From Apostichopus japonicus (Eukaryota > Echinodermata > Holothuroidea > Aspidochirotida > Stichopodidae), in the NCBI RefSeq assembly GCF_037975245.1, contig NC_092583.1, forward strand, positions 5,365,264 to 5,429,263: 64,000 bases of DNA, in the 5' to 3' direction. This document shows positions 20,701 through 60,700 of this stretch, piece after piece. How positions within the stretch are numbered: the first letter of the stretch is position 1; each line of letters opens with the position of its first letter. The notes beneath the pieces are model-generated. The model had not been told where the DNA came from, made no database searches, and worked only from the letters and a program-made list of their open reading frames with translations. The translations under genes were made by a program, and so were the position numbers.

Positions 20701-23700
20701 GTAGAGCTATGAGATCGTGACATTAGTTGTTGTAGAACACACATCTATAGAGTACTATAGGAGTTGAGTGCTACAAGGGAGCGTGTCACATGACCGTACA
20801 TGGTTGGTATTTGCACATCTCCTCATTGACATAGTAGGTCTGTGTTAATGTATATGCTGATGTGAGGTGAGAGGTGTATATAAAAGATTGTCATGTTGCA
20901 ACTGTTCACATGTGGATACCAACAAGACTGTATTTTGATGGTAAAACTCAAATTATAACTTTAGGTATTTTGATGGTAACACTCAGTATATGTAATGATC
21001 ATTTTACAAAGATGATATCTGTTGTAAGTTGATATCTTCACTGTTATATTTTTCTTTCAGATCCTTCAAAGGTCGAGAGGATGTATTTGCTGCTCTCCAT
21101 ACCGTCCTTGAGGTTAAATCTGACAAACCATGTATTCTCCATGGCATATCTGGATCAGGCAAAACCTCAGTAATGGCAATGCTGGCAACAAATGCAAAAA
21201 GTATCTTCACTGGGGATCTGGTGTGTGTCTTGAGGTTTTTGGGAACTTCATCGCTCAGTTCAACTATTCGTGACACCTTACTCAGTGTTTGTCGACAGGT
21301 AATCAAACCATTTGAACTCAATTGCGAGAAAACACAACTTTCTTTGTACTACTGTGAAGGTGTAGGCATGTGTGCATGCGTGTGTGGGTGTGTATGCGGT
21401 GCCTGGTCTTGTAAACACGATAACTCAAATGGGCATGGATTATTTTTTTTATTATACTTAGTGTGTCAATCTATGTAATATAGGTCTCACATAGCAGTCA
21501 AAACTCATCCTACCGCAGCATAGGTCAAAGTATTAAAATGTGTTTGAGATGATGTGTACCTTTTTGTGGCAGGTGAAAAGTCTAAAGACTTTGCAAGCAT
21601 GATGATCCAAATGTAAAGCTTGCATGAACTTTACACATATGTAGATCCTCCTTAGCATGAGAATCGTGGAGTCCACTAATGTAACAACTTGAAAGTCTTA
21701 AATGCCCTGTCCTATATTAAATGTTCTCATATTAAATATGGTAACAAATAACTTATTCTGTTGGCTTGCCGCTATTGAAACAGACTTCCTTTTCATATTT
21801 TGTTCTTCTTTATCTAGATTTGTTTTGCATATGACATGGAACAACCAAAGGATGATGAAGTTGAAGATTTTCATAAATTGGATATATTTTTCAAGTCACT
21901 TCTGATGAATGCTCCCACTAAAGAGAAGCCATTGTTTTTATTGTTAGACAGCATTGACCAGCTGTCATCTAAAAACAATGCTTACTCAATGAACTGGCTG
22001 CCTCTTAGTTTCTCTAAGTATGCCCATATAGTTGTTTCCATGCTACCAGTCGTCAATAACTGCCTGCATAGCATGCAAAAACTTCTGAAGGACCAAGACT
22101 GTTACGTGGAAATGACACCTGTAAAGCAAAACCTAGGTCTACAGATTGTAGATGGATGGTTGCAGCATCTCGGGAGAACAATAACAGAAGAACAAAGAAA
22201 CATCATTTCCACTGCCATGATCAACTGCCCGCAACCTCTGTACTTGAAAATCGTGTTTGAGCAATTTTCAAAGTGGCCATCTTACAAGTCAGTGAAGGAT
22301 GTGCAGCTGCCTGCTACAGTAAGAGCTGCTATAACAGAGCTGTTTGAGGAACTGGAGCGCAAGCATGGGCAACTGTTGGTGTCCCATACCTTGGGGTATC
22401 TTACAGCAGGTCGTCAGGGACTAACAGGTAGTGAATTGAGTGATGTTCTCTCATGTGATGATGAAGTGTTGAATGTGGTCTATCAGTACTGGGACCCACC
22501 AGAGGAAACTGTAATTCGAATTCCATCCTCAGTCTTAAAGCGGATCAGATATGATATGATAGAATTTCAAACTGAACGCCAAGCAGGAGGAAAAACTGTC
22601 ACAGGTTGGTACCACAGACAGTTTATAGAGGCTGCCTTTGATCGTTACTTGTCAGATTCATCTGTGTTTCGCAAACGGCACAAGCTGATTAGTGACATGT
22701 ACCTGGACGTGTACTGTGAAGGTAAAGTAAACCCCATTGAACTTTCACTGAGAGGAAAGGTCTTTCCAAAGGCAGATCGTCAGGTGGCCCCTCAACCCTT
22801 GGAGTTTGACAAGGCTCTCTTCAATCTTCGTAAATTGCAGGAGTTACCTTACCACTTATCTTGCTGTAAGGACTCTCAGAGACTAACTGAAGATGTCATT
22901 TACAACTTTGAATGGCTCTTTGCAAAACTGAGGTCCTGCTCTTTCATAGAGTTAATTGGAGACCTGGAGATGATGGACATAGACTGCAGTGTCCTGAAAG
23001 ATTCTCTACTCATGTCCAGAAGTAGTATTCAATCTGACCCTAGTGCTTTAGCTGGTCAGCTGATTGCAAGGATAGGAGATCTACGAGGTCAGTCTTCTCA
23101 CTTGAATCACCTTCTGGAACAGTGTGAACAATGGATTGCCACTAGTAGTCTTCCTGTCTTTGTGCCTAGGTCTGCTTTTCTGAAGCCTCCAGGAGGACCC
23201 CTGGTAACAACATTTGCTGGTCATCCATCTAGGGTCCTGAAGGTGGCTGCCTCTGAGATTCACCAGGTAATGATTTCTGCCTGTGAAGATGGTAATGGCC
23301 ACCCTCTGGCTTATGTATGGGATATAGAAACATATGAACTAATCCAGGATGTTCGTGTTCCAAACAATACTGAAGGAGGGTTTGGAAGTATTATTCTGGA
23401 AGTGAGCCCTAGTGGAAACCATTTTGCATTTGGTTCTGAACAGCTCAAGTTGTTTAAGACGTCAAGTGGTGATGAAATCTTTGCATTTGAATGTGACAGG
23501 GGAGACAGTGCTTCAGCATTTAAAGTTCTGAAGTTTATTGACAACAGTTGTGTTGCTGGTCTACAAGAGAATGGACATGAGATTCTGATGTGGAACGTGA
23601 CAGATGGTACCTTAATGTATAAGCTCAAACACCCTGCAGTTGTGACTCATCTGGATGTAAGCAATCCCTCAGTGATGGTGACTGCATCTCAGGATGGTAT

Positions 23701-26700
23701 TTTAAGTTGGTGGTCCTTGAAGACCATGTCTATTACTCACTCATTTCAAGTTTTCAGGGACAGCAAGTTTACAGCCCTTGCTGCCTCTGATGATTTGGTT
23801 TTCCTCAGTGGTGGTGATGGATCTTTGCAGCTCTGGGCATCTAAAGGGTCCCCTGTTGAGCCAACCCACACATTTCCTCCTCACCAAAAGCCAGTTTCAT
23901 GTATGTTTCTGTTAAACCAAGATACCTTAGTAGCTGGTTATTTTGATGGTTCTCTTAAATTTTGGAGTTTATCAACCAAAGAATGTCTGAGATCTTCTAA
24001 AATACATCGGAAAGAGATGACATGTTTTGCAGCTGTTGGTGATTTGCTTATCGCTGGATCATTAGATGATACCTTAAGTGTTTGGCTTCCCAATCAAAGC
24101 GGTTGTGTCAACATTCTAGAGGGTCACTCCTCGTGGATTGCAGATGTTGCAGCAATACCTGCCAAAGGTAGTCAAGTCATGATATTCTCAGCCTCCAATG
24201 ACAAGAGTGTTACTTTGTGGGACCCTGAGGATCACCTGGTAAGTATCATGATAAATTCAGTTTGATATAGCTGCTTCAGCTCAACATGAAATTTCTGCAT
24301 TCTCAACATTGAATTCCTTACAATTATAACTACAGTATTAGGCATGTTTTGTATATGACGTCTAAATGGTATGATCAATTAATCATAGAAAAGAAGTAAT
24401 ATCTGTACGTAAGCCACACTGTTATCTTCATAGTCACATTAATGATCAATAAATTCTTGCCTAATCTGCTAACTTGTGTCTCACTTGCAACCATTCTAGT
24501 AACTTCTGATAAACATTTTTGTCTTTCTATGTAATAACAGTTACTAGCATTTTACTGAATATTTGTATTAAAAATGGTTTCTTATTATATCTTGTTATGC
24601 TGTAGGTAAATGACAGAGAGCGGCATAACAAACAACCACATTGCATGGCAGGGACTAAGGATGGAGAGTTGTTATTTACAGGCTCATCAGATGGAACTAC
24701 TAAGTTGTGGGACTTTACTTCAGGAAAATGTCTGCATACTTGGGAGGATGCTGCCACCAGCTGCTTACTCCTCATCGATGATGATAGATGGCTAATTGGA
24801 GGGTTTGGAGATGGTCAGCTGAAGATGTGGGATGCAAATAAATTAGACGATTATGAAATGACCACTTGTCACACTGATGCTGTTGTATTTCTCAGCAGTT
24901 GCTTGCAACTCTGTTTGTTCCTGTCTGGTTCAAAGGACAGACTTGTCAAGCTCTGGGATGGAAGTGATTGTATCATGACATTCCAAGGGCATACGGACAC
25001 TGTCATGGACGGGAAATGTACACAGGATGGGAGAGACATCTATGTGACTGGTGCGACGAATGGAGAAGTCAAATTTTGGAACAATTGTGGGGAATGCTTA
25101 GAGACTACAATGCATTGTAAAGGACTAGAGCTGGTTGTGATCTCCTACAATAGTCAATACGTTGTGACAGGTGCTAGAGGACAAACAATGATTGTGTGGT
25201 CCTTATCTGAAGGGAGTATCGGTTCCAAACTGAAGGCTGTCTCTATTAGTGTTGATTCAGTCAAGGGTCTAGCATTCTCTCACAATGATGAGTTCATCCT
25301 CTGTGGAATGCATATTGGCAAGAAACAGCTCTACAGATGGAAGTTTCTAGATGAGAGCAACACTGAACAAATGTAAGTCATGGCTTAGGTTGGCTTCATG
25401 TTTTACATCTGTAGATTTCCAAGTTATGGTAAGGTTCATGTCACCATGATCTCGGATATTATTTGCGGTTAACTTAAAAATCAAATATTAGATAGTTTTG
25501 AGGTTACTGAACAATATAAGTTGTCTTGATCCCTGCCTTCATTTTTCCTTTAACATAACATGTTCCATCAGTTGTGTGACAGACAGTGAGACCAGATCAA
25601 TGCTACTCTTGCTTCCTGTGGTGTTGTTGTTGTAATTCATTCTTTTTTTTCCTTCTACTTCCTAACCGTTTGGAACAACATTGTTTGGTTTCAGGTATTT
25701 TGAAGGTCACACACATGCTGTAATGTGGCTGTACATTACAAGTAATGACAAATACCTTTTCACCGGATCTAGAGATTGTACCATGAAGGCTTGGGATCTG
25801 ATGTCAGGCAAGGTTCTTGCTTCATTTAACTGTGCTTCTCAAATCAAATACTTCCAAGTTGCAGAAATGACTGACAGCCACTACAGGATAATGGCAGCTA
25901 ACAAAACTGGAGAAATGGCATTGTTTGACTTCTACCTTGGTGAAGCTGAAAGAGTTCCAAATTATTCTAGGTAATAAATATTTTTTAATTCCTTGATTGC
26001 CTGGTTCAAGAGTTTCAAATTATTCTAGGTAATAAATATTTTATATTCCTTGTTTGCCTGAATAAAGCTGCATTTTTCTTAAACTTGCCACAATCTAGTG
26101 ATACCATACATTGAGATTAGAGGAAAATAGAGTCCACCAAAATTATCCCAAGAATTATGATGCAATGTTAAAACCCAACACATAATGCTGCTTTAAGTTT
26201 GAGATGCAGGTGCTGAGGTTGGTGGGGTGACAAATTCTAGCCATTCAGTTAAAATGCTACAAAATATCTCTATTCATGTACTGTGGCATATGTCTGGTCA
26301 ATGTTGGAAATTGCTCCTCTTCTCTTATTCATTATATAAGCACATGTTTGTCAATTGTAAAGATTTAAAGTTGTAGCATGTGTAACTAGGTATTTTGAAT
26401 ATGTGCTAATATTAAATTTTACTGTATGGCAACAGTATTTTGTATTCATTTAACACATTCACAGTTTTCAAATGTCTAAATTGACTCCTGAATCTAGGGA
26501 GGGTGGCTTTTGGAAAATAAAGAGTAATTTGAACTTACTGGTTTATATAGTTTAGCTGTGTTGTTCACTTATGATTATTTTAATTTTGTGTTGATTTGAT
26601 GCTATCGTATTTGGTTTGGATACTTTCCTCCTATACAGAGATGCAGACGATGCTGAGGCTACTGCCAGGCTGAATGAACCCATCCAAATAACTGACGAAA

Positions 26701-34275: not shown

Positions 34276-37200
34276 ATGTATTATATTTTCCTTATCCTCG
34301 CGAGTCTGCTAGGAGCGTTCGCTGCAAAGGACTACACTGGGTAAGTATATGGAAGTAATATTAACATGATGTATATTACATGCTATCATGACAAGGATAT
34401 ACTACACTGGGTAAGTATGTAAGTAATATTAACATTATAAATACATCAACCAAGTTTCACCGAGACTCAAACGAATTCCAAGGATGGCAAGTTTACAGCG
34501 TATAGTATTTATCATTAAAAGTTTCTTGATATATTTAAGATATAGCTTCATATGCTTTCTATAGTCACTTCGCCCAACAACCATTTCGCCCAACTGCCAT
34601 TTCGCCCAATCAGCCTGGTCATTTCGCCCAACCAGCCTGGTCATTTCGCCCAACCAGCATGGTCATTTCGCCCAACCATCATAGTCATTTCGCCCAACCA
34701 GCATGGTCATTTCGCCCAACCATCATAGTCATTTCGCCCAACCAGCATGGTCATTTCGCCCAACCGTGTTGGTCATTTCGCCCAACCTTATTTTTACTAA
34801 TATTCAGTCAGAACAATATTACTTTTTCTATTCCACTAGTTCAATTTGATTTATTTTGGATTAGGTTACTTCGTAATAGGTAAATAAAAACGTGAGGTTC
34901 GCTCGATAACGATCGGAGTCTGAGCAGTTATTTCGGGTATAATGGGAGGATTACACTACTTTAGGCGTTTACGCATACAATGGAAGTGCTTGCGAGTCAC
35001 TTCGCCCAACAACCATTTCGCCCAACTGCCATTTCGCCCAACCAGCCTGGTCATTTCGCCCAACCGCGTTGGTCATTTCGCCCAACCAGCATGGTCAGTT
35101 CGCCCAACCGTGTTGGTCATTTCGCCCAACCGTGTTGGTCATTTCGCCCAACCGTGTTGGTCATTTCGCCCAACCTTATTTTTACTAATATTCAGTCAGA
35201 ATAATATTACTTTTTCTATTCCACCAGTTCAATTTGATTTATTTTGGGTAAGGTTACTTCGTAATAGGTAAATAAAGTGAGGTCCTCTCGATAGCGATCG
35301 GAGTCTGAGCAGTTATTTCGGGTATAATGGGAGGATTACACTACTTAAGGCGTTTACGCATACATGGAAGTTATATTATTATACAAACAAAGGGGAATCG
35401 GTGTGGAATAATATAACCGTTTCTATTTCACTAGTTCAATTTGATTTATTTTGGGTTATATTATTGGTAGTTATATTATTATTATTATTATATGGAAGTT
35501 ATGTTATTATAAAAACAAAGGAGAATCGGCATGTTTGAGGAACTGAATAGTTGTCTTTTTCTGGAGCATTAAGTGGCCCTAAGAAGAGCCGTTTGCATAT
35601 TTGAGGAACTGTAGTTTTCATCTTTCTGGAGGATAGTTCAGGAGCTGTGTAACCTCACATCGTTGGGGCAGGGCTTTTATCCATCCTTTGGGTTTATCCC
35701 ATGTGATTGACAGGCTGATGTCAATAATTGATGTTATTGCATTTGTGAGTCAGTAATCCGCAGTTATTGGTTTGGTCAGCCAAGCGTTAATCCGGTCAAC
35801 CAGACGTTTATCGGAGGCCTATTGTTTGTGGTTTATTAATCCACACCTATTGTTCTGCTTGATGACTTCGGTCAAGGTTTATCAAGTCCGCCAGGCATTA
35901 ATCAAGGGTATTGTTCACAGCAGTTATGTGTTTATCTAGTTCTACATAGTGTTAATCTAATGTTATACAAACACAGGGGAATCGGTCTTCATAAAAACCT
36001 ATCAAACCTAACCCGTAAAATACTGGTCCATCCTACTGACTAACAATTCCGGAACGTTAAGTGAAAAACAATATATATATAAAACCCGTCCGTAATATTT
36101 ATCAATGTAACCACATATGTAATCACATATGTAGGCCTAATCAATTTAACCACGACTTCAAGTTTCCTTAATACTCGGTTCGTATCCCGTAACGTTAACA
36201 ATTCCCGACCGTTTACTATCAAACCTAACCCCTAAAACACTGATCCATCCTCAAGATTCCTTAATATTCGGTTCGTATTCTGTAACGTTTCCTTACTAAA
36301 GTTATACAAAGAAAAGGACTTCAAGTTTCCTTAATATTCCTTAATATTCGAACGTTTACTATCAAACCTAACCCCCAACACACTGATCGGTCCTCAAGTT
36401 TCCTTAATATTCGGTTCGTATCCTGTAACTTTAACAATTCCCGAACGTTTACTTTTCAAGTATCAAGGTTGGGCGAAATGACCAGGCTGGTTGGGCGAAA
36501 TGACCAGGCTGGTTGGGCGAAATGACCAGGCTGGTTGGGCGAAATGACCAGGCTGGTTGGGCGAAATGGTAAGGTTGGGCGAAATGGCAGTTGGGCGAAA
36601 TGGTTGTTGGGCGAAGTGTCCTGCTTCCATGGAAGTTATATTATTATACAAACACGGGGAATCGGTCTTCATAAAAACCTATCAAACCTAACCCCTAATA
36701 CACTGATCGATCCTCAAGTTTCCTCAATATTCGGTTCGTATATCCTGTAACGTTAACAATTCCCGAACGTTTCCTTTCCAAGTATCATATTTAATCAAGG
36801 TTGGGCGAAATGACCAGGCTGGTTGGGCGAAATGACCAGGCTGGTTGGGCGAAATGGTAAGGTTGGGCGAAATGGCAGTTGGGCGAAATGGTTGTTGGGC
36901 GAAGTGTCCTGCTTCCCTTCATATAATGAGGTTATTAGTAGTCTTTGTGAATAGAGATCAAAGGATATCTTACGGTAAGTACAAATTTATAAAGTACTTT
37001 AATACTACATTTGTTCTGGGTTTCGTACTGACAGTTTCGAACTCCTTGACACGAATCAGAAACTGGACTATGGGAAAGAACATCAGCTTTCTAGTCACTT
37101 CGCCCAACAACCATTTCGCCCAACTGCCATTTCGCCCAACCAGCCTGGTCATTTCGCCCAACCAGCCTGGTCATTTCGCCCAACCAGCATGGTCATTTCG

Positions 37201-40200
37201 CCCAACCATCATAGTCATTTCGCCCAACCAGCATGGTCATTTCGCCCAACCGTGTTGGTCATTTCGCCCAACCTAATTTTTACTAATATTCAGTCAGAAT
37301 AATATTACTTTTTATATTCCACTAGTTCAATTTGATTAATTTGGGGTTAGGTTACTTCGTAATAGGTAAATAAAAACGTGAGGTCCGCTCGATATCGAGC
37401 GGAGTCTGAGCAGTTATTTCGGGTATAATGGGAGGATTACACTACTTTAGGCGTTTACGCATACAATGGAAGTTATATTATTATACAAACACAGGGGAAT
37501 CGGTCTTCATAAAAACCTATCAAACCTAACCCCTAAACACTGATCCATCCTACTGACTAACAATTCCCGAACGTTTCCTTATTAAATTGAAAAAAAATAT
37601 ATATAACCCGTCCGTAATATTGAAGTACTATATTTAATCAATGTAACCACTTTATCAATGTAACCACATATGTAATCACATATGTAATCAATTTAACCAC
37701 GACTTCAAGTTTCCTTAATACTCGGTTCGTATCCCGTTACGTTAACAATTCCCGAACTTTTACTATATCAAACCTATCAAACCTAACCCCTAAAACACTG
37801 ATCCATCCTCAAGATTCCTTAATATTCGGTTCGTATCCTGTAACGTTAAAAATTCCCGAACGTTTCCTTACTAAAGTTATACAAAGTAAAGGACTTCAAG
37901 TTTCCTTAATATCCCTTAATATTCGAACGTTTACTATCAAACCTAACCCCTATCACACTGATCAATCCTCAAGTTTCCTTAATATTCGGTTCGTATCTTG
38001 TAACGTTAACAATTCCCGAACGTTTCCTTTTGACATATCATATTTAATCAAGGTTGGGCGAAATGACCAGACTGGTTGGGCGAAATGACCAGGCTGGTTG
38101 GGCGAAATGACCAGGCTGGTTGGGCGAAATGACCAGGCTGGTTGGGCGAAATGACCAGGCTGGTTGGGCGAAATGACCAGGCTGGTTGGGCGAAATGGTA
38201 AGGTTGGGCGAAATGGCAGTTGGGCGAAATGGTTGTTGGGCGAAGTGTCCTGCTTCCGAACATGCTTTCTAGTCACTTCGCCCAACAACCATCACATAAA
38301 CGCTTTCTGGTCACTTTCGCCCAACTGCCATTTCGCCCAACTAGCATGGTCATTTCGCCCAACCAGCCTGGTCATTTCGCCCAACCAGCATGGTCATTTC
38401 GCCCAACCAGCCTGGTCATTTCGCCCAACCAGCATGGTCATTTCGCCCAACCAGCATGGTCATTTCGCCCAACCATTTTTTTTAACTCATATTCAAGCCT
38501 GTCAGAATAATATCCCTTTGAATATTTCACTAGTTCAATTTGATTTATTTTGATATATGTTTTATATATTACTTCATAGTAGGTAAATCAAGTGATGTCC
38601 GTTCGATATCGATCGGAGTCTGAGCAGTTATTTCGGTTATAATGGGAGGATTACACTACTTTAGGCGGTTAACTACGCATACAATGTAAGTTATATTATT
38701 ATACAAACAAAGGAGAATCTATTTCACTGTTTTCTAAATTCACTGATCCATCCTACCGACTGTAACCACGACTTCAAGTTTCCTTAATATTCGGTTCGTA
38801 TCCCGTAACGTTAACAATTCCCGAACGTTTCCTTATTAAATTGACCAATATTGAAGTATAATATTTAATCAATGTTGGTCGAAATGACCAGCAAGGTTGG
38901 GCGAAATGACCATGCTGGTTGGGCAAAATAACCAACAAGGTTGGGCGAAATGGTAAGATTGGGCGAAATGGCAGTTGGGCGAAATGGTTGTTGGGCGAAG
39001 TGACCAGCTGGCACATAAACAGTTTGCAATGTCGAGGCTAAAGATATTTGCAATTGTACTCTCTTGCAGGCTCAACTAAGATGATACTTTCTCTAATGGT
39101 CTTAATTTCAGGTATAAAGTCTTGCGGGTTACTCCTCCGGACGAATCCTCTTTTAACTACCTACATGTATTGGAATCTCAGGTAGGAGAGTAGTAATGTA
39201 TATCCCGATTTGTGATGCAACTTATCCTTGTTCTTAGGAGATAGACCTGTCTTGGTGCTCAATATCCATACCTATCGAACACTCTATAAAGAAGTTGGAC
39301 GAAATATTTAACTCAAGTACACTCGGTACGTATGTATCCAACAAAATGTGGGTACAGTTTTACCCCTAAAGAAGTAAAATGCAGACAATTTTGACAAATT
39401 GATCACTTTTTGGTAATTAATTTGGTTACATTATCGCATGTTTACTTGTTTTGGGGCAAACATTGCTTAGATGTAGTTGGATACATACGCCATCCAGAGT
39501 TGGTTTAAATATTTTCCCCGGCTTCCTGACAGAATTAACCCTTTCCTTGTTCTTGTAGATATTTGTACGTACATAAGTGCATATCTATCGAATTGACCTT
39601 TAATCTTGGAATATATGCTAGTGGTGTGTTCGTTTAAATTCTTAATCTTTATTTAAATTTCATTTGTGTTTCTGGGGGAGGTGGGAGGGGGGGGGGACGG
39701 CCTGACTTCCAATCTATATTTCTCATTGTACTGACGATCTTCACAACCGATATGGTGTTTGTATTTTATCTGGGAGGTGGGTGGGGGGGGGGGGGGCAGA
39801 CGGCCTGACTTCCAATCTATATTTCTCATTGTACTGACTATCTTCACAACCGATATGGTTTTTGTATTTTATCTGGGAGGTGGGTGGGTGGGGGGAAAGA
39901 CGGCCTGACTTCCAATCTATATTTCTCATTGTACTGACGACCTTCACAACCGATATGGTGTTTGTATTTTATCTGGGAGGTGGGAGAGGGCGGGGGGGGG
40001 GGGACGGCCTGACTGCCAATCTATATTTCTCATTGTACTGACTATCTTCACAACCGATATGGTTTTTGTATTTTATCTGGGAGGTGGGTGGGTGGGGGGA
40101 AAGACGGCCTGACTTCCAATCTATATTTCTCATTGTACTGACGATCTTCACAACCGATATGGTGTTTGTATTTTATCTGGGAGGTGGGAGAGGGCGGGGG

Positions 40201-43200
40201 GGGGGGGAGACGGCCTGACTTCCAATCTATATTTCTCATTGTACTGACGATCTTCACAACCTATATGGTGTTTGTATTTTATCTGGGAGGTGGGTGGGGG
40301 GGGGGGGAGAGACGGCCTGACTTCCAATCTATATTTCTCATTGTACTGACGATCTTCACAACCTATATGGTGTTTGTATTTTATCTGGGAGGTGGGTGGG
40401 GGGGGGGGGGGAGACGGCCTGACTTCCAATCTATATTTCTCATTGTACTGACTATCTTCACAACCGATATGGTGTTTGTATTTTATCTGGGAGGTGGGAG
40501 AGGGGGGGGGGGGAGACGGCCTGACTTCCAATCTATATTTCTCATTGTACTGACGATCTTCACAACCGATATGGTGTTTGTATTTAATCTGTCAGCATTC
40601 GAAATGATTTTATATATTTAATATCTTCCTTTTTTGTGTCTATCGAATGTGATTATACCTAAGAACTCTTTGTTCTTCATTTTCCATTTCTCAGTATGAC
40701 TTCTGGAGTGAGTCCCGAGGTGTCGGCTATTCAGCTGATATTATGGTATCAGAAGATTATCGAGGGATCTTGGTTTCAAAGTTGGAGGAAAGAGGTTTCA
40801 ACATTGAAACAATGATCGATGATATCCAACCATTAATTGATGGACAGATGAATACAAGAGCTCAATCTGGATTTAGTTATGATGATTATCATACTCTTGA
40901 TGAGGTAACTATTTTCTTTTGAATAAATATGTCATTGTTTAGCTTTAATGTCATCACTCTCACATTTATATGATAACAAGATATATTTCACTCAAACCGC
41001 CCCAAATGTCACACAAACCTCATATTTGGATACCTTACAATATACATATAAAGGAATTGGCTTTGTTATTACATCCATTCGTTGATATGACGTTTGGTTT
41101 TTCGAGTCCAGGCATTATCTTGGCTCCTATTTGTAAAAATTATAACTACGTCACATTCATAACCAATATCGTGTGCAGAAACAGGCAAGCAATGAAATGA
41201 TTAATATATCCTGTTCAGATTCGCCAATGGATGCTTGATTTCACGGCAGAGAACTCTGATTTGGTTCAGATGGAACAAGTGGGAACAACATATGAAGGTC
41301 GAGATATTCAGAAAATTAAAGTGAGTGTCTATAGTAGTGAAGTCATATTTGTAGTCCATATATTATAGAATTTATCATTTCAATCGCTACGTAATCCCCC
41401 CAAAAATTCTGGGATGATGGTTGATTTTCCTTTCTTCGGACACATATATGATTAATCCATGCGTCTATATGAGTATATACTATAAGTCAATAACCCAGGT
41501 TATGAGAAATTGGGGGAAATCAATTTTCAATATTTCTCATGGTCCCACTCAAGTACAAATGCAAGCCACTGGAATCATATGAATTGTAACAGGGAGTTTA
41601 CACGGATTGCAACACCTGAATACAAGTATACGACTATAGTGTGTTAGATATCACCGTTCTCACGGGTAGCGTTTGTTTGTTGGTTTTAGATTCTAATGCA
41701 ACTTGTCATATACCAACAATTTGTTTATACTAGCCAGCATGGGCATCACTTACATACTCTTAAACGTTTGTTTAAATTGTTTGAACTAACATCTCTATTT
41801 CTCTTGCAGATTTCCTCAGACTTCAGTGACACCACCAGGCCAATATTCTTCATGATCGGAGGGACACATTCTCGGGAATGGGTTACTCCTGCGACAATGA
41901 TGGCAGTGGCAAAACGCGTAATGTATCCAATACACGAACTAGCGTGAATGGCGTCAGCATTTCATGCTATGCGACACATGAAACAATCTGAAATAAATCA
42001 AAAGTTGACTGCCAGCTCACCTGCCGTTATCAACTTATTCAAGTTTTCAGAACTCTTCTTAATGTTATAACATAGAACATTGTTTGAACGTTTTACACTG
42101 ACCTTATCTTTAGAGCATTACTTTATAATATAATATAACATAGTACAGGGTTTGAACGTTATATGGTGACCTTATCTTTAGAGCATTACCGGTACTTTAT
42201 AATATAATATAACATAGTACAGTGTTTGAACGTTTTACACTGACTTTATCTTTAGAGCATTACTTTAAAATATAACATAACATAGTACAGTGTTTGAACG
42301 TTATACAGTGACCTTATCTTTAGAGCATTACTTTATAATATAATATAACATAGTACAGTGTTTGAACGTTATACAGTGACCTTATCTTTAGAGCAATACT
42401 TTATAATATAATATAACATAGTACAGTGTTTGAACGTTATACAGTGACCTTATCTTTAGAGCATTACTTTATAATATAATATAACATAGTACAGGGTTTG
42501 AACGTTATATTATCTTTAGAGCATTACCGGTACTTTATAATATAATATAACATAGTACAGTGTTTGAACGTTTTACACTGACTTTATCTTTAGAGCATTA
42601 CTTTAAAATATAACATAACATAGTACAGTGTTTGAACGTTATACAGTGACCTTATCTTTAGAGCATTACTTTATAATATAATATAACATAGTACAGTGTT
42701 TGAACGTTATACAGTGACCTTATCTTTAGAGCATTACTTTATAATATAATATAACATAGTACAGTGTTTGAACGTTATACAGTGACCTTATCTTTAGAGC
42801 AATACTTTATAATATAATATAACATAGTACAGTGTTTGAACGTTATACAGTGACCTTATCTTTAGAGCAATACTTTATAATATAATATAACATAGTACAG
42901 TGTTTGAACGTTATACAGTGACCTTATCTTTAGAGCATTACTTTATAATATAATATAACATAGTACAGTGTTTGAACGTTATACAGTGACCTTATCTTTA
43001 GAGCAATACTTTATAATATAATATAACATAGTACAGTGTTTGAACGTTATACAGTGACCTTATCTTTAGAGCATTACTTTATCTAGAATATAACATAGTA
43101 CAGTGTTTGAACGTTATACAATGACCTTATCTTCAGAGCATTACTTTATAATATAATATAACATAGTACAGTGTTTGAACGTTTTACACTGACTTTATCT

Positions 43201-46200
43201 TTAGAGCATTACTTTAAAATATAACATAACATAGTACAGTGTTTGAACGTTATACAGTGACCTTATCTTTAGAGCATTACTTTATCTAGAATATAACATA
43301 GTACAGTGTTTGAACGTTATACAGTGACCTTATCTTCAGAGCATTACTTTATAATATAATATAACATAGCACACTTGGACCATATTTACAGTGACCAACT
43401 CGTTAGAGCATAAGTATATCAAAGAATATAACATAGATATTACAGTGTTTGGACGTTAATTATACAGTGACCTTATCTTTAGAGCATTACTTTATCATAG
43501 AATATTACATAGTGCAGTGTTTGGACGTTTTACAGTGACCTTATCAATATAGCATAACTATACCATAGGATATAACATAGTTCAATGTCTTTAGAGCATG
43601 ACTATATCATAGAATTGTGATATTAGAAGGCAACGTCGTTAAACTTTTGTCAGACTTCTAAATTGGCGTCAGCTTAAGTCGATGTGCTTTCCTACATTCT
43701 CTGTTATACAGGTCCTAACGTCATAGATTGCAAACCATGATTTTTTTCCAATCATTTGTCATTGCGTTTGGAGCTCATTTCGTTTCTAATACATTTTGCA
43801 ACAGTTTTTAAATCAAACCTGCCAACCATTTGATAGTGTTGCCAAAACACAGCAAGCTTTATGAATAAACTACCTCTAGTACCGCTGAAGAATCCAAGCC
43901 GGTGAGGAATGTTATCGAAATTAGATTATTATAGGATTTGCTTTTCTTCTCATTGCCTTATATTATTTCAAGTAATTGAAAGCTAAGTGTGAAAAGCAGC
44001 TTTAATTCCACTTTGCTTCGCATTTCAATTTTTAGTTGGTCGATGAAAGTGGCACGGAAGGGAATCTATTGGAATTGATGGATTTTCATATTGTTCCTGT
44101 CTTCAACCAAGACGGTTACCATTTCACGTGGACCGATGTAAGTATACTGCTGAACTTACCATATAAATGGGGAACGTAATCCACTTATAACGTGAGCGGG
44201 AAATAAATAATAATAAAAATAATAATAAATACAAACACACCTGACACAAAAACTTGGAGAACTTGCATGGACGCTGTACGTGCACCCTTCCATGGCCGTC
44301 ATGTAAATTTACATGATGGTATGCACAATGTATACCGACTGTACCATGCGTTTACTGAGCCTGGCTCACTATGTGCCCGTGAAGCAACCTATACTTTAAT
44401 TGTTTAACAGTTTAACGTAGTATGGGAATACATTACATTTTCGACCACAATTAGCACACCATTAATTCTTTCTACTGATGGATAGTCTATTTTTCAAATT
44501 TTGTATACGCCGAAAATTCCATTATCTCACTTTAAGGTCATATTGTGCATGCACATGCATGATGATTCTCTCTGTACATCTCTCATAAGGTAATAATTTG
44601 CTTTTTGTGTCCTAAGGATCGAATGTGGCGTAAGACCCGAAGTCCAAACGATGCATCGCCCTGCGTTGGAACAGACCCAAACAGGAACTGGGACTGCCAA
44701 TGGGGAAGTAAGTAATATACGTCTGTGTAAACACAGTGTATAAACATAGTCCAGACGGTCGAAGAGACGCCTTAGAAGTTGGAACTTTTTCCAGCAGTAT
44801 TGTTAGTCAATGGGAGATATAATAACCAATCACATGTGTAGTATTTTCCGTGACGTAGTGCAAAGTATTTGTTGTAAAGCATTTATGTTTCCAAATTGTG
44901 AAAGAAGCGAAACAGAAATGTTTATTTCTTCTATAAAGCTCGTGTAGTTCACCTGGACTTGTTTTATCTGCTATCCCTTTAAATGTATTTCCTCTTTACA
45001 TTGAGGCTACAATTTTTAACAGTCACAATAACATATAACAAGGACAATTCTTTAAGTGTGACATATCTAATTATTATTTCAGCTGGCGGGTCCAGCAACT
45101 TTGAATGCAGTGCAACATATATGGGATCCAAACCTGCCTCCGAGATCGAAATCAAAAATATGCAGGATCATGTCTCCGCTATTAGAGATCGAGTGAAAGT
45201 CTTTATGGATGTCCACGCATACAGCCAGTACTGGATGTATCCCTATGGTCATTCAGATGTACTACTACCCGCCGATGACGATGAACTGGTAAGAGTCTTT
45301 AAGTATGAAGTCAATTAGAGTACACAGATATCATGTAAGGAATTATGTTCTTTTCTGTTTTCCCTTCTTCTTGAGGAGGTTCTTGAACTTCTTGACATGA
45401 GATCGGGAAGCAAGGGCGGCGGAAGCACTTTTAATCTGGGGGGGGGGGGGCACCGACATCAAAGGGCACTTTGCAGAAATTCGATTGGACTGATGCAGCC
45501 TTATATTTAGTACCCTTTATAACTCTTATTGTATTAACTTATTTGCGTATACACATCACTCCATCAACGTCCCCCCCCCCCCCTTCAAGGAAAATATGCA
45601 TACTAGCACTGCAATATCCAATATGCAAATTGGGAAACAAGTTTTCTTTTGAGACAAAATGAGGTGAAAACATGCTAGTTGCTAATGTAGGAATCTTCCG
45701 AATTAGAGTTTATTTCTTGTTAATATCTTAACAATTTTTTTCCATTCGGAAATAGCATTGACTTTGACCCACAGAAATTCATTAAAAGTCAGGGGCGTAG
45801 CCAGGATTTGCAAAGTTGTATGCACGACTATCTGAGCGGAGCGCCACCATCGGTTGGCGCGGAGCGTACAAGAAAATTTTTGGTTTTACAAACCCCTCAG
45901 ATGGCCGGAAACGGGCCTTCCCGAGTGTTCATTCTGGTTCCCTGGCCTCAAGTTGCTAACTTGAGACACCTCAATTCTTATGTAGAAAAAGGGCACATTT
46001 TTAACCTGAGGAAAAGTGGGGGGGGGGGGGCACGTGCCCCCCCGGTTCCGCCGCCCTTGTCGGAAAGGGTGGAAGCTCATGGAAGGTGAACTTTTTTGTA
46101 GAGCCACATTTAGTGTATCTACTGTGTGTGTATTATAAAGAAGACAAATCGTTTTTAGACATCAAGTTTTTCCACACTTTTTTGCCTTTCTGTCGCAATT

Positions 46201-49769: not shown

Positions 49770-49774
49770 TCACA

Positions 49775-51592
49775 GACAGAATGGACATCAAGCCTCACAC
49801 TAAAGGTAACATGTTAGCTCTATCTTGTGCAGACAGAATGGACATCGAGCCTCACACTAAAGGTAACATGTTAGCTCTATCTTGTGCAGACAGAATGGAC
49901 ATCGAGCCTCACACTAAAGGTAACATGTTAGCTCTATCTTGTGCAGACAGAATGGACATCGAGCCTCACACTAAAGGTAACATGTTAGCTCTATCTTGTG
50001 CAGACAGATTGGACATCGAGCCTCACACTAAAGTAACATGTTAGCTCTATCTTGTGCAGACAGAATGGACATCGAGCCTCACACTAAAGTAACATGTTAG
50101 CTCTATCTTGTGCAGACAGAATGGACATCGAGCCTCACACTAAAGGTAACATGTTAGCTCTATCTTGTGCAGACAGATTGGACATCGAGCCTCACACTAA
50201 AGGTAACATGTTAGCTCTATCTTGTGCAGACAGATTGGACATCGAGCCTCACACTAAAGGTAACGTGTTAGCTCTATCTTGTGCAGACAGAATGGACATC
50301 GAGCCTCACACTAAAGGTAACGTGTTAGCTCTATCTTGTGCAGACAGATTGGACATCGAGCCTCACACTAAAGGTAACATGTTAGCTCTATCTTGTGCAG
50401 ACAGATTGGACATCGAGCCTCACACTAAAGGTAACGTGTTAGCTCTATCTTGTGCAGACAGATTGGACATCGAGCCTCACACTAAAGGTAACGTGTTAGC
50501 TCTATCTTGTGCAGACAGATTGGACATCGAGCCTCACACTAAAGTAACGTGTTAGCTCTATCTTGTGCAGACAGAATGGACATCGAGCCTCACACTAAAG
50601 TAACGTGTTAGCTCTATCTTGTGCAGACAGAATGGACATCGAGCCTCACACTAAAGGTAACATGTTAGCTCTATCTTGTGCAGACAGAATGGACATCGAG
50701 CCTCACACTAAAGTTAACGTGTTAGCTCTATCTTGTGCAGACAGAATGGACATCGAGCCTCACACTAAAGTTAACGTGTTAGCTCTATCTTGTGCAGACA
50801 GAATGGACATCGAGCCTCACACTAAAGGTAACGTGTTAGCTCTATCTTGTGCAGACAGAATGGACATCGAGCCTCACACTAAAGGTAACGTGTTAGCTCT
50901 ATCTTGTGCAGACAGAATGGACATCGAGCCTCACACTAAAGGTAACGTGTTAGCTCTATCTTGTGCAGACAGAATGGACATCGAGCCTCACACTAAAGGT
51001 AACGTGTTAGCTCTATCTTGTGCAGACAGAATGGACATCGAGCCTCACACTAAAGGTAACGTGTTAGCTCTATCTTGTGCAGACAGAATGGACATCGAGC
51101 CTCACACTAAAGGTAACGTGTTAGCTCTATCTTGTGCAGACAGAATGGACATCGAGCCTCACACTAAAGGTAACGTGTTAGCTCTATCTTGTGCAGACAG
51201 AATGGACATCGAGCCTCACACTAAAGGTAACGTGTTAGCTCTATCTTGTGCAGACAGAATGGACATCGAGCCTCACACTAAAGGTAACGTGTTAGCTCTA
51301 TCTTGTGCAGACAGAATGGACATCGAGCCTCACACTAAAGGTAACGTGTTAGCTCTATCTTGTGCAGACAGAATGGACATCGAGCCTCACACTAAAGGTA
51401 ACATGTTAGCTCTATCTTGTGCAGACAGAATGGACATCAAGCCTCACACTAAAGTAACATGTTAGCTCAATCTTGTGCAGACAGAATGGACATCAAGCCT
51501 AACACTAAAGTAACATGTTAGCTCTATCTTGTGCAGACAGAATGGACATCAAGCCTCACACTAAAGTAACGTGTTAGCTCTATCTTGTGGAA
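49775..51592 (+). repeat. 57 bp minisatellite, 32 copies, open in one frame
   Basis: Units start AGAATGGACATCGAGCCTCA and pass GTTAGCTCTATCTTGTGC. I count 32 copies. Most are 57 bp, exactly 19 codons, so the + strand reads a 19-residue repeat (MDIEPHTKGNVLALSCADR) for up to 286 codons (50605-51465). A few 56 bp units shift the frame and close it at TAG. There are no splice signals or leader, so it is more likely a homogenised minisatellite downstream of the minus-strand ZC2HC1-like gene, or in its 3' UTR, than a coding region. Confidence 0.95.
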
Positions 51593-51796: not shown

Positions 51797-54700
51797 CTAC
51801 CTGGGAGATATGAAAGCCCTTTGAATGCCACAACTACAGCAAAACTTTGAAGTAGAAGTTGGGTATTGAGTGCCACAATCATGACAGAAGGGTGCCAACA
51901 CACTATTTTCTCTCTTAACCATTGACGTCTCCCTCATGATTTGTGGGGTAGTACTTCTCTGACCAAACATAACACCATTTTGGTAGCTGGAGCTGTTGTC
52001 TCCTGCAGCCTGTAACCTAGGTGACTGGTAACCAGGAGGTGAGACTGGAGAGCTAGGATCAGAACTGTAACCACTGGAGTTTAAAGAAGTACTGGCCAAT
52101 CCAAGGGATGTTGTCCTGACAAGAAAATGATAGGTCCAAAAATGTATTAGCAAACAATGATATCTTCCCTATCTCGCTATCTATACAACTTAAAGGGAGT
52201 GAAGACTCACGCACAAAGAAACGTCTGATGCCGGCATCAGACCTATTTTCGAATGAGGTGCAAGATGTAACAAAAGTGTTAGACACCACCATCGATCCCA
52301 GAAAATACACACACAGCTTGCTACCGTCGGTAATTAGACACTAGTGTACAGTTAATACATGCAACTACGGTTAATACCCACAACACAGTGTACATAGCAG
52401 CGATGGACATCTCAGCAGGGAGTTGTTTTGGAACTCCCTGATCTCAGGTCCAGATGAAAGATATTACAAGGTACTGTCTGCATTTTGTAGCGGCAAGAAG
52501 AAAACTTCACTTGCAAGCAACGGAAATTTAACTTTTTTCAGAGGGCGGCATGCGGTTTGGGGTGAGTCTTCAATGCCTTAAATTACTGGAAGGAAAGAGC
52601 AGTTAGACCATCTTATATTTGTAAATCATATCAAGCATATAACAAGTAAATGCTTTTTGACATCTGTCAAGATTTCATAATCATTGAAACTAAGGACATT
52701 ACAACTCACATTTCATATTGAGTATTATCAGCCTGGCTTGGAAGATTCTCCTTTCTCATGCGCTCTCTTGAGATGCCAACTGGAGTCCTTGATGCATGGG
52801 GAGGACTCCTGAGATGTTCCTGGCTACCATAGTGGCTTACAAAGTCATTACCATGGGGTCTAGTTGGGTTCATGGCTTGATTAGGGGGCACTACTGCAAC
52901 ATTCTCCACATCCTTCATGGAACCATCAGGAGATGGAGGCATGTGAAATGTCTCTACCTCATCAGAGAACCTGCATAGAAATTGGAAAAGAGGAAAAACA
53001 TAAATCTATTCAGTAAAACTCTTCTTATTTAATCATGACTACAGAATGTGGTACAATGTATTTGAAATTATTATTAAGACCTGCAGGATACTAACCTTAC
53101 ATTGCCTTTTGGGGTTCTGTTCCTAGGATACTTTTTAAGAGCACCTGAGACTGGCCTCCCAATGGAGTGTCTTGAGTTATTGTTGGGAGAAGGATCGCTG
53201 TAAGAGGATGATGGGGTAGAGTTCCTGGATGTAGAGGCTGAAACAGAGACAATCTTCCGCCGTGGTGAAGTGGTAGGTCTAAAGCTCTTTGGTGGTGCTG
53301 CTACAAGTTGTGATGAATAATTATTCAAATTATTGGCTGAAACAGGAGAAAATAATTAACAGCAATATGACTGTTATATTAAAACACTGAAATGATTGTT
53401 AATTCGCCTACAAATGTAGTCCAGTCGAGCCAAATATTGTGTGTATGTTTTTGTGACGTATGTGAGTATGCAACAACATTACAGAGCCAATTGGCTGTAT
53501 TCTACATTCTGACTGACACAGGTTGGTAAGCTTCTTCAAAAACTTATAGTTTCAAATGAAAAAGATACACTTCATGCATACTGCTAATCATATTCACTGT
53601 TTGTCTATTCCCAATCACCGACACTCAATTACACCAACAAAAGCATTGCAAGAACAGTTATAGGCACTGATGAACCTCTACTCAAGGATCAAATGAGTAC
53701 ATTTTGACAGATTTTACAAAGTGTAGACCAGGAGACTTTTCAAGTAAAAGAAGTAAGATATTGCTATGCTCAATTATTTCACATGTGTCTAGTCTGAAGG
53801 CTGGTTTACACTCCATAATATCTCTTGGGCGATAGATGTAAACGAACCATCTATGGTAAAAACATCTTCATAGCAAGAAATATTTTGACCATATATGGTT
53901 TGTTTATATCTATCGCCGATGAGTCTGTCTTTAGTCTACATATACTCAAGTCTTAAGTTACTGAACATGTATGATATGTACTGGTGTTGTTACAACAAGG
54001 GGAGTTACTTACCACTATATGACCCACTAAAGGCACTGGAATACATAGGAACACCACCATACAGAGGCTGACTAGGAACCACCTCTTTAGTCCGGATGAC
54101 CCTTTGGTAGTACTATGGGAGAGAACAATAAACAAAAGATTAATAAGAACAACAACTCACATTTATTCCTAAACAAACCTTAGAGGAAAGAAAATCCAAA
54201 GGAAGAAGAATAAACCAATAACAATATACACTATCTTTGCTATCATGGTGTAAGCCTTTATTGATTACCTAGAACTCAGAAAGCAGCATTCATTCAGCTG
54301 ATGAAACTGTAACTTGCCACGCATGTGTACTGATATCAAGGGTACAACAGTTATGTAAATAGTGACAGGATATTTCCTAATTATACAACAACTTGAGACT
54401 CTTTCCACCAAGAAAGGATGTGGTTTCTCATGCCTTACTTGTCCTAACATCTTTTAAGACTCACCTTTGCAGCTAGAAAGCAAACTATTAGACTGATATC
54501 TCTAACATCACACTTCAAGAGTTAATATACAAAACTTTGACTTCTCCTCATTACATATTACTGGAGATTCTGTAATGCCAGGGCATCTAACTATCAGATA
54601 TACACTTCAACACAATTATGTCTGTCTCATAAAGGATATATGCCTGGAATGTATTCATATTACTGGAGATTCTGTCATGCCAGGGCATCTAAGTATCAGA

Positions 54701-57700
54701 TATAACACTTCAACACAATTATGTCTGTCTCATAAAGCTTGGATATCTGCCGGGAATGCATTCATATTACTGGAGATCCTGTAATGCCAGGGCATCTAAC
54801 TATCAGATATAACACTTCAACACAATTCTGTCTGTCTCATAAAGGATATATATATATGCCTGGAATGTATTCATATTACTGGAGATTCTGTGGTGCCAGG
54901 GCATCTAACTATCAGATATAACACTTCAACACAATTATGTCTGTCTCATAAAGGATATCTGCCTGGAATGTATTCATATTACTGGAGATTCTGTAATGCC
55001 ACGGAATCTAACTATCAGATATAACACTTCAACACAATTATGTCTGTCTCATAAAGGATATCTGCCTGGAATGTATTCATATTACTGGAGATTCTGTAAT
55101 GCCAGGGCATCTAACTATCAGATTTAACACTTCAACACAATTATGTCTGTCTCATAAAGGATATCTGCCTGGAATGTATTCATATTACTGGAGATTCTGT
55201 AATGCCAGGGAATCTAACTATCAGATATAACACTTCAACACAATTATGTCTGTCTCATAAAGGATATCTGCCTGGAATGTATTCATATTACTGGAGATTC
55301 TGTGGTGCCAGGGCATCTAACTATCAGATATAACACTTCAACACAATTATGTCTGTCTCATAAAGGATATCTGCCTGGAATGTATTCATATTACTGGAGA
55401 TTCTGTAATGCCAGGGCATCTAACTATCAGATATAACACTTCAACACAATTATGTCTGTCTCATAAAGGATATCTGCCTGGAATGTATTCATATTACTGG
55501 AGATTCTGTAATGCCAGGGCATCTAACTATCACATATAACACTTCGACACAATTATGTCTGTCTCATAAAGGATATCTGCCTGGAATGTATTCATATTAC
55601 TGGAGATTCTGTAATGCCAGGGCATCTAACTATCACATATAACACTTCGACACAATTATGTCTGTCTCATAAAGGATATCTGCCTGGAATGTATTCATAT
55701 TACTGGAGATTCTGTAATGCCAGGGCATCTAACTATCACATATAACAAGTTCAACACAATTATGTCTGTCTCATAAAGGATATCTGCCTGGAATGTATTC
55801 ATATTACTGGAGATTCTGTAATGCCAGGGCATCTAACTATCACATATAACAAGTTCAACACAATTATGTCTGTCTCATGAAGGATATATGCCTGGAATGT
55901 ATTCATATTACTGGAGATTCTGTAATGCCAGGGCATCTAACTATCACATATAACAAGTTCAACACAATTATGTCTGTCTCATAAAGGATATATGCCTGGA
56001 ATGTATTCATATTACTGGAGATTCTGTAATGCCAGGGCATCTAACTATCACATATAACACTTCAACACAATTATGTCTGTCTCATAAAGGATATATGCCT
56101 GGAATGTTTTCATATTACTGGAGATTCTGTAATGCCAGGGCATCTAACTATCACATATAACAAGTTCAACACAATTATGTCTGTCTCATAAAGGATATAT
56201 GCCTGGAATGTATTCATATTACTGGAGATTCTGTAATGCCAGGGCATCTAACTATCACATGATAACACAATTATGTCTGTCTCATGAAGGATATATGCCT
56301 GGAATGTATTCAAATACTCACAGCTTTCCCTCTTCCTGTTTTACTGCCACCAACATCTGCTGCAGCTCTTTTACTAAGTGATTTGATTGGTTCACCGTAA
56401 GTCTTTGTTCTCTGCTGACAAAATGTTATATGTCGTGCACCTGCTTTGGCATTGAAACGACGGTTGCAGTAAGGACATGGTACATAATCTGAAAAAGCAA
56501 AGTTAATTATTTGGGGAATCAAGGTCTGCCTTCTGCATGTATTACATACTGTAACATTACAGATAAACATCATTAATGTACTTCTTTTAATATGAATTTG
56601 TTACAAATTTTGAAAACAAAATGTTACAGGTGATTTTTCAATGGCCCTACAACAAGAGAATAGATTAATGACAGATTGTGATCTCTAAAATCAAGTTAAG
56701 CCAATCAGTACACATAATTGTATGATGAAATGATACAGAACTATCACTGGGGAGATTTACACGGTTGTAATCTTTAATAGAGATGAATTTAGCCTGGAAG
56801 ATTTCTGGCAACCAATTCATTCACCATTTGCCAGTCATGAAATTCATCTAGAGTAGGAATATGTCCTACTGCCAGCAACAAACATAACCTTGCATTTCAA
56901 ATAGAGATACTGTAAGTGTCAGCACAATGAATCCAATATCATATTGTAGGTCTTGTAAGACAATACCTAGAGTTATTTTAGATGTATGTTTAGTAGGAAT
57001 AGCTGCCTACAATTGATATAACATGTTACTTCCAGGGAACTGCTGCACAGGACCTGACTACATTCTGTCAATAAACTCCTTTTCTGTGAGCAAGTTAACT
57101 CCAGCTCCTACATTCTTACACAGTATTTTTCAGGATTAAGCAACTTTGAATGCTGGCAGACCAACCACCAAAAGAACCTGTTTTAACTAGCATGTCATCG
57201 TTGCCGTTGTGTGCTATTTGCTTAGCGTGACCAAAGGGAAATTTCCGCTTGGTCGAGGTCGGGCTTAGGTCAATACTGCCATTTACTGGTTGCCTTTCAT
57301 ATCCACCTCCTCGATTTGCATACTTATGTAATCGATGTACAATTACGTAATCGATGCATACTTGCGTATTATGTGAGGTACACGTGCTTCATTCCTCTCC
57401 TGGTTCAGAGAGGCGTCGCATGTGCTCCTATAGCATTGTTCCTTAGTATGTAAGTATTCTAAATGTTTTATATAGGTATTAAGGGGCTTGATATTGTAAT
57501 TGTATATCTCTTTTAATATCGTGTTACAGAGATTTGCTTTTAATATGATTTGCTGTATGCTTGTGCCTGTTATTTTGATTGCCTTTTTGTTGTTTGCTTA
57601 TTTGTAAGAGTATCTGGAGTAGAATATATCGCCAGAGGTTATTTCTTTGTTGGTATTCTCTACATTCTCCAGAGAGCCGCCGTTAACCCCAGAAAGCCGC

Positions 57701-60700
57701 TGTTAGCCCCAGAAAGCCGCCATTAATCCCTGTAAACCCCTGTACACTACAGTTTGTCGTGCTGTTGGTTTTGCCAGGTAACGATTGTAAGTTAAGTTAT
57801 AATTATCAAGAATGTAATTGACGCCAATCTTTCTCTATGTTTTGTTTCACGTTACCAAATGTTAATTGTTATACTTCTTCCTTTTGTGCATTATTATGTT
57901 ATCATTGATTTGTGCAAATTCATATGTTTGTTCACCAATGTTTGTATATATTGATGTTTTGATATCTTTACTTTATAGTCGCTGTGGATCAACGTGGTCA
58001 GGAAGATTGGACTGATCCATTCTGTTGCGGTTTTTTTTATATTGCTGTGACGCAAACTATTGCATTCTCAATGTATATGGGAATTTGGGTGGGTAAAACT
58101 ACCAATTAATGTGCTTTTAAACTAATTTTGAGTTCTAAACGGTACAATAACAAATTTAATATAATTACACATAAACGATGAGGAATGCGTAATTACAGTC
58201 CCCTATACTAGGCGCTACCACGCGGGCGTCTACAATAGCGTCTCTTGAGGTTGGGCAAGAAGGTCGATATTTTCTAACGAAGACTCTCATTTGTTACCCC
58301 TAGGTCCGATTGAAAACTTTAACCAATCACAATAATTTTTATATGTACAGAATCTGTCACTCATTTGTAATGCATATTCAATTTAGACAAAGAGGAGGGC
58401 CAGTGTTATAGTGACACAATTGAACTTTCAAAAATGGGAGATTCAAAGCCACACGACGCTACATGTTGCCATGTGCAGGTTTCAAAAGTTACGTATTTTT
58501 ACATTTTTTAACCCCCAAAGTCCGATTGTGCCATGCTAAATAGAAACTAGAAAACAACAGAGATATGAAGACATTTATTCCACCTTTCTAAAGATGTTTT
58601 AGACAAAGTGTAATGAAATGAAGAAAGAACTGTTATCAGTGAAGAAAAACATGGCCTAACAGTAAGTCAACGAGGGGTGTGGGTAGTAACTGTTGTGACT
58701 TTCCGCCGCTGCATAAGGAAGAGCGCTAGGGAATTGATATGGTATAAGAACCTCATGGCAATATTGAGCTTAATGAAGGCCCTCTCTTGTTGACAGTGTC
58801 CACACATGACCATTCTGTGGTACAATTGAATTGATAACTTAGGCTATGACACCATGAGAAGGAAGACACTGTAACATCCACCATGCACACATAATTGACC
58901 TAAGCCCTACTCTTCCTATTTTACTTCCTTTTCAAAGTACTCTAATACAGTTCTGTCAATAAATGATTCATTCATTTGACTCTTTACCCTGGACAACCTG
59001 TTTAATGTTTGTAGCTTGGTCACTTGCCTCAAAATCTTCTTCCATTCATGCACATTTTCTTGTCTCTAAATATTTCAATTGCAATGTTCACCATTTTATT
59101 GGACTCCACATCTAAGAAAAGGCGTTTAGTAATATCTTAAGCATTAGCACACAAACTTGAAAAGGTTGTCAGATAGAAGGGAATGTTTTTGTTCAGTTAT
59201 GGAAAGAACTGCACATGTTGACAAATTTTACTTGTCAAAGACAAGCAAATGCATGATATTGTCTGTTTGAACAAGATAAAATAGACAGCTGTTCTGACCC
59301 TTCAACATGCACTACTCACACGCACTACTGCATTATCCCTGTTATTATTCCCGAACAAATTTCAGTTTGACCATCATTATCTTACATCAGTTAACGACCA
59401 TAGTACAGTAGTTGGGTTAACATCTAACACGTGATGGATAAAATCTTTTAAGATTGTTTTAGGGCAGTGGATCAGATACAGGAGAACTGGCTTCCATAGC
59501 TGGTGTTTTATTTGGATTATCTTCCTCTACAGGAAGTATGTCTGCAATCATGTTATCGTCAGAATCACTCTCTGATCGGAATAATGTGAAGTATATATGT
59601 GAAGATTATCCCTTACTTGATTAGGCTCCCAATCCTTGTCAAGACTTTGGAATTTCCCAGGATCATTCACAAAACATTCCTGATTTGGTCCTGGTCTAAA
59701 CGTAACTGCATTTTCTAACTGAATTTTGACAGGGCCAGTTACCTCATTGATGATAACAGTGACCGACTTAGGACCTCTTTGGGTAAAGTTACGAGCATGA
59801 ACTTTTTCTCCTTCTTGAAAATAACCAGACCCAGCTGTTTTATTGTGAGTTTTCTTTTGGGCCTCTCTTTTCTGAGTAACCCTAGCCTCAACGTTGGGAT
59901 GGAGTAAGTCCAATGTCGAGCCCATGTTTCTACCCTGCAGCAGTTCAGCTGGGGAAACTCCCATACTAGTATGGGGGTTTATTCTATACTTGAATAGAAA
60001 TCTTGATATTTTATCATCTAGAGACCCTTCTTTCAGTCTCTTCATTCCTTGTCTGAAAGTCTGGACTGCACGTTCTGCATTTGATGACGGGTCATAAGGA
60101 GTGGAAGTGATATGCTTGTTGTGATTCTGCATACAGAATTTCTTAAATTCTTCACTTACAAACCAATCGCCATTATCACTAACCAGCATGCTTGATTGAG
60201 CAAAGGACTTTGGATAGTACAGTAGTTCCACTGGTCCTGGAATTCATGTTATGCACTTCTGTCCATTTGGAATGAGCATCAACAAGTATTAAAACATATG
60301 ACCCATAAATGGGCCGGCTCTGGGTGGAGTTGGCCTACTCTCTTGGCAAATGGGGCACTACTTGACCGAGTTGTCAATTTCATGATCCAACATTGGCCAC
60401 CAAATAAATGTGCTGCTACAGTTGTTCCGTAATTACATTATTTGGCTAGAGCTCTTTATTTTGCTACGTACATATACGTAGGAAGAAACGGACTCACGCT
60501 GCTTATGAAAATGACTGTTGAATTACAGCATTGTACAATTACCCATGGCATTGGATTTTGGTGTTTACCCATTATTTCCAAGAAGTCCTTGTAAGTTTGG
60601 TTTCCAGGGTTCTCTGGCAATACTAGATGCCCCAACATATTGTAGGCATATGCCACAATTACACTCACGAAAATTAATTGTTTCTTGGTTTCTTCGGTTA

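Follow-up and report, generated by a model that had tools for sequence, protein, structure and literature searches.

What fills the first intron of a carboxypeptidase gene in Apostichopus japonicus, and how did it come to be there? The intron lies within a 64,000-nucleotide stretch of contig NC_092583.1 (positions 5,365,264 to 5,429,263; hereafter the window, with positions counted from its first letter and features on the plus strand unless stated otherwise) and extends from approximately 34341 to 39111, as read from splice sites in the sequence. Approximately 4246 of its 4771 bp are occupied by four elements (E1 to E4) with long, internally repeated arms, so that the intron of a digestive-enzyme gene is mostly occupied by four related transposon remnants, one within another. 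A preliminary description of the locus had proposed that a cluster of four foldback elements, one of them nested, fills this intron, and this was borne out by target-site duplications, a restored insertion site and homology at the level of individual repeat units. The cluster is confirmed here as a real and well-preserved foldback transposon family, and we consider it rather probable that its members form one non-autonomous family of DNA transposons mobilised in trans by an array-binding transposase, most likely of the Mutator superfamily (MULE/Phantom).

The arms of all four elements are inverted arrays whose units, 16, 18 or 22 bp long, are built on the core CA(C/T)TTCGCCCAAC. The exact string TTTCGCCCAAC occurs 56 times in the window (32 on the plus and 24 on the minus strand), with every copy inside 34546–39020, against approximately 0.017 copies expected from base composition. 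A unit map resolved eight arms and one fragment, together comprising 69 core units spaced at 22 bp (41 cases), 16 bp (15) or 18 bp (4). The 16 and 22 bp spacings described earlier were thus recovered, and to these the map adds the 18 bp step, which occurs once in each of the four right arms and is followed there by 22 bp units. Both arms start with CACTTCGCCCAAC just inside the outer 10 bp and continue in 16 bp steps, with the exception of the left arm of E4, from which the first 16 bp unit is absent and whose end carries one extra T. Left arrays are mixtures of spacer variants, and the right arrays of E1 to E3 are nearly uniform. The 11-letter spacer of the commonest 22 bp unit, ACCAGCCTGGT, accounts for 17 of the 39 spacers counted and forms a perfect dyad about a single base; in the other variants, 3 to 5 of the 5 dyad positions pair.

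The eight arrays run forward, forward, reverse, reverse, forward, reverse, forward, reverse, as had been reported, with one orphan forward unit at 38264–38292 that the preliminary description omitted. Their bracket-like order is therefore real but weak when taken alone, since four forward and four reverse arrays can be arranged in 70 ways, of which 14 are balanced (20% by chance), and it was dropped as proof. That frequency, and the richness of the window in other minisatellites, would also be consistent with the locus holding no transposons, only inverted segmental duplications of a minisatellite with an orientation that alternates by chance. We consider this highly improbable: three exact 8 bp duplications lie exactly at the shared ends, the elements have non-repeat modules in common that keep a fixed orientation, and the restored target site of E2 (below) speaks strongly against it.

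Once the ends had been set by the shared termini, the 8 letters outside five left ends were compared with those outside four right ends, giving 20 pairings. Three of these match at all 8 positions, and they are the two flanks of E1 (CTTCATAT; 34546–34553 and 36917–36924), of E2 (ATGGAAGT; 34980–34987, within E1, and 36629–36636) and of E4 (ACATAAAC; 38294–38301 and 39013–39020). The flanks of E3 (GAACATCA and GAACATGC) agree at 6 of 8 letters, and the remaining 16 pairings at no more than 4. Among 200,000 random pairs of 8-mers from the window the rate of full matches was 8.5e-5, and when duplication lengths of 4 to 12 were tried at the ends of E1, E2 and E4 a full match was obtained at 8 only. 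The three exact duplications claimed previously are accordingly upheld. At E3, the orphan unit (a 29 bp copy of the family's left terminus, with the letters of the E3 left end) begins 6 bp past the element and ends shortly ahead of the E4 duplication, and GAACAT before it together with CA after it would complete the E3 duplication. This arrangement offers the suggestion that the right duplication of E3 was split by the 29 bp fragment, with a chance of 1/16 for the two added letters; the fragment itself may be what is left of a fifth element, or it may have arisen by templated insertion.

The right terminus is identical in E1 to E3 and differs at 4 of 17 positions in E4, while the left termini are alike without being identical (two extra bases in E1, two changes in E2, and one change plus one extra base in E4). 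Element ends read GC... on the left and ...CC or ...GC on the right. Read inwards, the outermost 10 bp of E1 to E3 resemble GCTTTCTAGT at the left end and are GGAAGCAGGA at the right end, and the two match one another in inverted orientation at 3 of 10 positions (ends of E3) or 4 of 10 (E2); they are therefore not inverted copies, and the inverted repeat begins further in.

E1 (34554–36916), delimited by its termini, arrays and duplication, measures 2363 bp including E2, which occupies 34988–36628 (1641 bp). Removal of E2 and one copy of ATGGAAGT leaves an E1 of 714 bp that is collinear, across the junction, with the uninterrupted E3 (37086–38257, 1172 bp, delimited by termini, arrays and flanks), and the rejoined stretch is also recognisable at the equivalent place in E2 and E4. 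Because this removal restores a stretch collinear with E3, E2 was inserted into a pre-existing E1; the nesting, and the age order of E1 before E2, thus stand as first described, with the E2 duplication intact at 8 of 8 letters. Duplications, fixed ends and nesting together show the insertion of defined units of DNA. In the alignment of E1 (without E2) to E3, 652 of 667 aligned letters are identical, with 552 gap letters. The gaps comprise an additional 44 bp double unit in the left array of E1 (34554–34788, 11 units), fewer units in its right array (36799–36916, minus strand, 6 units) and a repeated right middle of which much has been lost, a pattern that points to slippage or unequal exchange. 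The right array of E2 (36467–36628, minus strand) has 8 units.

Each arm matches the reverse complement of its partner at 84–93% over 112–180 bp in all four elements, and it is the array that makes up the long inverted portion of an element. The left and right middles were compared in E3 alone, where inverted matches between them are short, at best 14 bp at 93% (E 0.048) or 20 bp at 80%. Folded as single-stranded DNA, E4 (the one element so treated) reaches −162.7 kcal/mol, whereas 20 shuffled sequences average −71.3 (z = −15). The elements thus combine the features of foldback transposons, namely inverted ends of variable tandem repeats, flanking duplications (exact in three of four) and a hairpin (E4). 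Sea urchin TU elements (Strongylocentrotus) likewise have long inverted ends whose outer parts are short tandem repeats, a modular middle and 8 bp duplications, but also an inner inverted domain beside the outer repeats. The TU/foldback architecture invoked in the preliminary description therefore holds for the general plan and fails for this inner domain, in place of which only the short inverted matches link the two middles of E3.

Divergence among the copies is uneven. Pairwise differences in the left module that the copies share number 8 of 189 positions for E1 and E2, 9 of 193 for E1 and E3, and 10 of 189 for E2 and E3. E4 (38302–39012, 711 bp), recognised by its left module, hairpin fold and near-inverted outer ends, is a divergent subfamily whose left module differs from those of E1 and E3 at 25 of 198 positions (29 of 190 in a second alignment, in which the E4 tail is poorly aligned). 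Its core units, in contrast, are changed at just 6 of 195 positions (Fisher p 5.5e-4 against the 25 of 198 relative to E3), and two of these six changes were attributed, by reading, to the extra T. Across all 69 units the 13-letter core shows 8 counted substitutions in 897 positions, a count that leaves out the C fixed in the outermost unit. Slow change of the core in E4 suggests constraint. By self-BLAST, part of the left module occurs a second time in E2 (35406–35529) and is followed by a private segment of approximately 433 bp (35530–35962). Apart from an internal repeat, this segment matched nothing else in the window at E <=0.1, and it is possibly captured DNA. At 37384–37403 the left middle of E3 contains a perfect 20 bp palindrome, of which E1, E2 and E4 have, by eye, imperfect versions in the corresponding position.

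By what means would such elements move? All Pfam matches of the 33 frames of at least 50 amino acids in the cluster fell under the curated cut-offs. The closest was a zinc knuckle (19.2 bits against a cut-off of 20.8, E 0.0013, 8 residues) in an antisense frame at 38047–38268, followed by a viral regulator domain (18.2 against 27 bits, E 0.0036), and both were judged to be chance matches. Scans of the window against Rfam and for tRNAs returned nothing. Patterns of the array and of a conserved left-module 21-mer had no matches in viral and bacterial or archaeal contigs, as expected for an animal element, and this result carries little weight; among the matches listed in a literature search on the letters of the array unit, which were taken to be primers, no title concerned transposons. 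As E1 to E4 have no coding capacity, their movement, if they are still mobile, would be in trans. A transposase encoded elsewhere would bind the repeated core, the natural candidate for its binding site, in both end arrays, and would pair the ends, excise the element and reinsert it at a target cut with an 8 bp stagger. Each array may have arisen by amplification of the recognition site at the terminus, with a pair of 16 bp units followed at right ends by one of 18 bp and then, at either end, by 22 bp units; the number of units would shift by slippage or unequal exchange.

The superfamily of this transposase was weighed from the duplications and the ends. Eight base pairs is the typical duplication length of hAT elements, and it was from this length that the preliminary description had guessed at a hAT-like family; the consistent 8 bp duplications do agree with the same non-autonomous foldback elements being moved by a hAT transposase. 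However, hAT termini are of the CA..TG type, and the ends found here are of the form G...C. Moreover, MULEs make duplications of 8–11 bp (PMC6446971), and asymmetric ends outside the arrays are documented for Mutator elements (PMC3169594). The hAT guess is consequently disfavoured as improbable, and a Mutator-type transposase is preferred with moderate confidence, because the non-inverted outer ends of E1 to E3 are the oddity that they share with Tm1 of Meloidogyne. Tm1 has composite inverted repeats with a variable number of 13–15 bp tandem units, short asymmetric motifs at its extreme ends, outside the inverted repeat, and many non-autonomous copies, and its autonomous member encodes a Phantom-type Mutator transposase (PMC3169594). 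Its duplications are of 8–10 bp in 45 of 53 complete copies and mostly of 9 bp (PMC3169594). E1 to E3 thus resemble Tm1 in their tandem-unit inverted ends and asymmetric outer ends, and all four elements differ from it in sequence, unit length, the prevailing duplication length and the existence of a known autonomous transposase copy. Two features of Mutator/Phantom elements are accordingly present, namely duplications within the range of 8–11 bp (8 bp in three of four elements) and, as in some but not all members, subterminal inverted repeats with short non-inverted outer ends (E1 to E3).

Muta1 of Aedes aegypti provides a second point of comparison. It is an active Mutator element whose 12 bp subterminal repeat is present in 9 copies and whose duplications are of 8 or 9 bp, its non-autonomous derivatives, termed type 2 foldback by the authors, have variable repeat numbers and unrelated middles, and the element, whose transposase is known, moved in yeast (PMC5225508). 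E1 to E4 are similar in their subterminal tandem repeats, duplication length and variable repeat number in non-autonomous copies. The palindromic 10 bp terminal motif of Muta1 lies within the inverted repeat (PMC5225508). Tetris of Drosophila virilis, a non-coding foldback element with tandem repeats in its ends, 8–10 bp duplications and no autonomous copy found (PMC4079207), differs from the present elements in its repeat of 220 bp and in that its repeats have escaped into satellite arrays (PMC4079207).

Several observations weigh against a Mutator-moved family. The asymmetric ends of E1 to E3 are not shared by Muta1, given the placement of its terminal motif, and the termini of E1 to E4 have by eye no sequence in common with the Tm1 motifs. 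The outer ends of E4 are nearly inverted, agreeing at 7 of 10 positions, and the flanks of E3 agree at just 6 of 8 letters. All three exact duplications are of 8 bp, whereas many Mutator groups make duplications of 9 bp (PMC6446971), and an 8 bp length does not by itself separate the superfamilies. No transposase or autonomous copy was seen among the four copies in the window, and four copies are all that the evidence comprises. Finally, homogenisation of the arrays before E4 split off could give low core variation without binding.

Foldback structure arises independently across superfamilies, and the elements may instead belong to another superfamily with 7–9 bp duplications (P/Galileo-like or Merlin-like) or to one not yet described. 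Galileo of Drosophila, for example, is a P-type element, although its duplication length differs from the 8 bp of E1, E2 and E4. Repeats in its long ends bind the Galileo transposase (PMC3688188). E1 to E4 have similarly long, internally repeated ends, and binding that was demonstrated for Galileo is a candidate property here; the likeness is one of described structure, and the Galileo transposase is of the P type. There is no positive evidence for a P- or Merlin-type identity at this locus, and we regard this alternative as rather unlikely.

Similarly tentative is the proposal that the elements are a foldback lineage of their own, whose terminal inverted repeat became the repeat unit. Recognition would then have shifted from a single site at the terminus to an array phased at 16, 16 and then 22 bp, releasing the extreme 10 bp of E1 to E3 to diverge. 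This shift is proposed because the right end of E4, GCCAGCTGGTCACTTCGCCC, is close to the array unit ACCAGCCTGGTCATTTCGCCC, and we would give it a small share of the probability. If true, and with an echinoderm as host, it could tell which superfamily moves TU-like elements. The family, for its part, may be undescribed, and looks like a new family of a known kind and not like something without precedent. If its ends are of the Mutator type, it would add an animal case in favour of the view that this superfamily includes many foldback elements and that transposase binding sites are multiplied by their arrays. The relative age of E1 and E2, the three exact duplications and the unit-level map are enough to define the ends of the family and to seek its transposase in a genome.

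The carboxypeptidase identity of the host gene comes from a downstream exon and not from the leader exons: that exon has a Pfam match to zinc carboxypeptidase M14 (E 3.8e-14) and also matches procarboxypeptidase A in the PDB (E 3e-12), whereas the two joined leader exons (45 amino acids) had no Pfam match. Elsewhere in the window, long minisatellite arrays are present at 39683–40591, 42066–43588, 54554–56312 and 61357–62389, with units of 102, 68, 103 and 47–73 bp, respectively, and a 57 bp repeat at 49773–51589 (32 copies, 98% matching) contains an open frame of 19-residue repeats, 288 amino acids in one stretch. On the minus strand, a frame at 59548–60243 weakly matches the core of a retroviral-type integrase (E 5e-4, under the curated cut-off) and is perhaps the remnant of an LTR retrotransposon. 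An open frame of 1158 amino acids at 3760–7236, also on the minus strand, has PHD finger, endonuclease and reverse transcriptase domains and is apparently an intact LINE-type retrotransposon. The region at 21818–25376 belongs to an NWD1/TEP1-like gene, with a winged-helix NWD1-type domain and many WD40 repeats.

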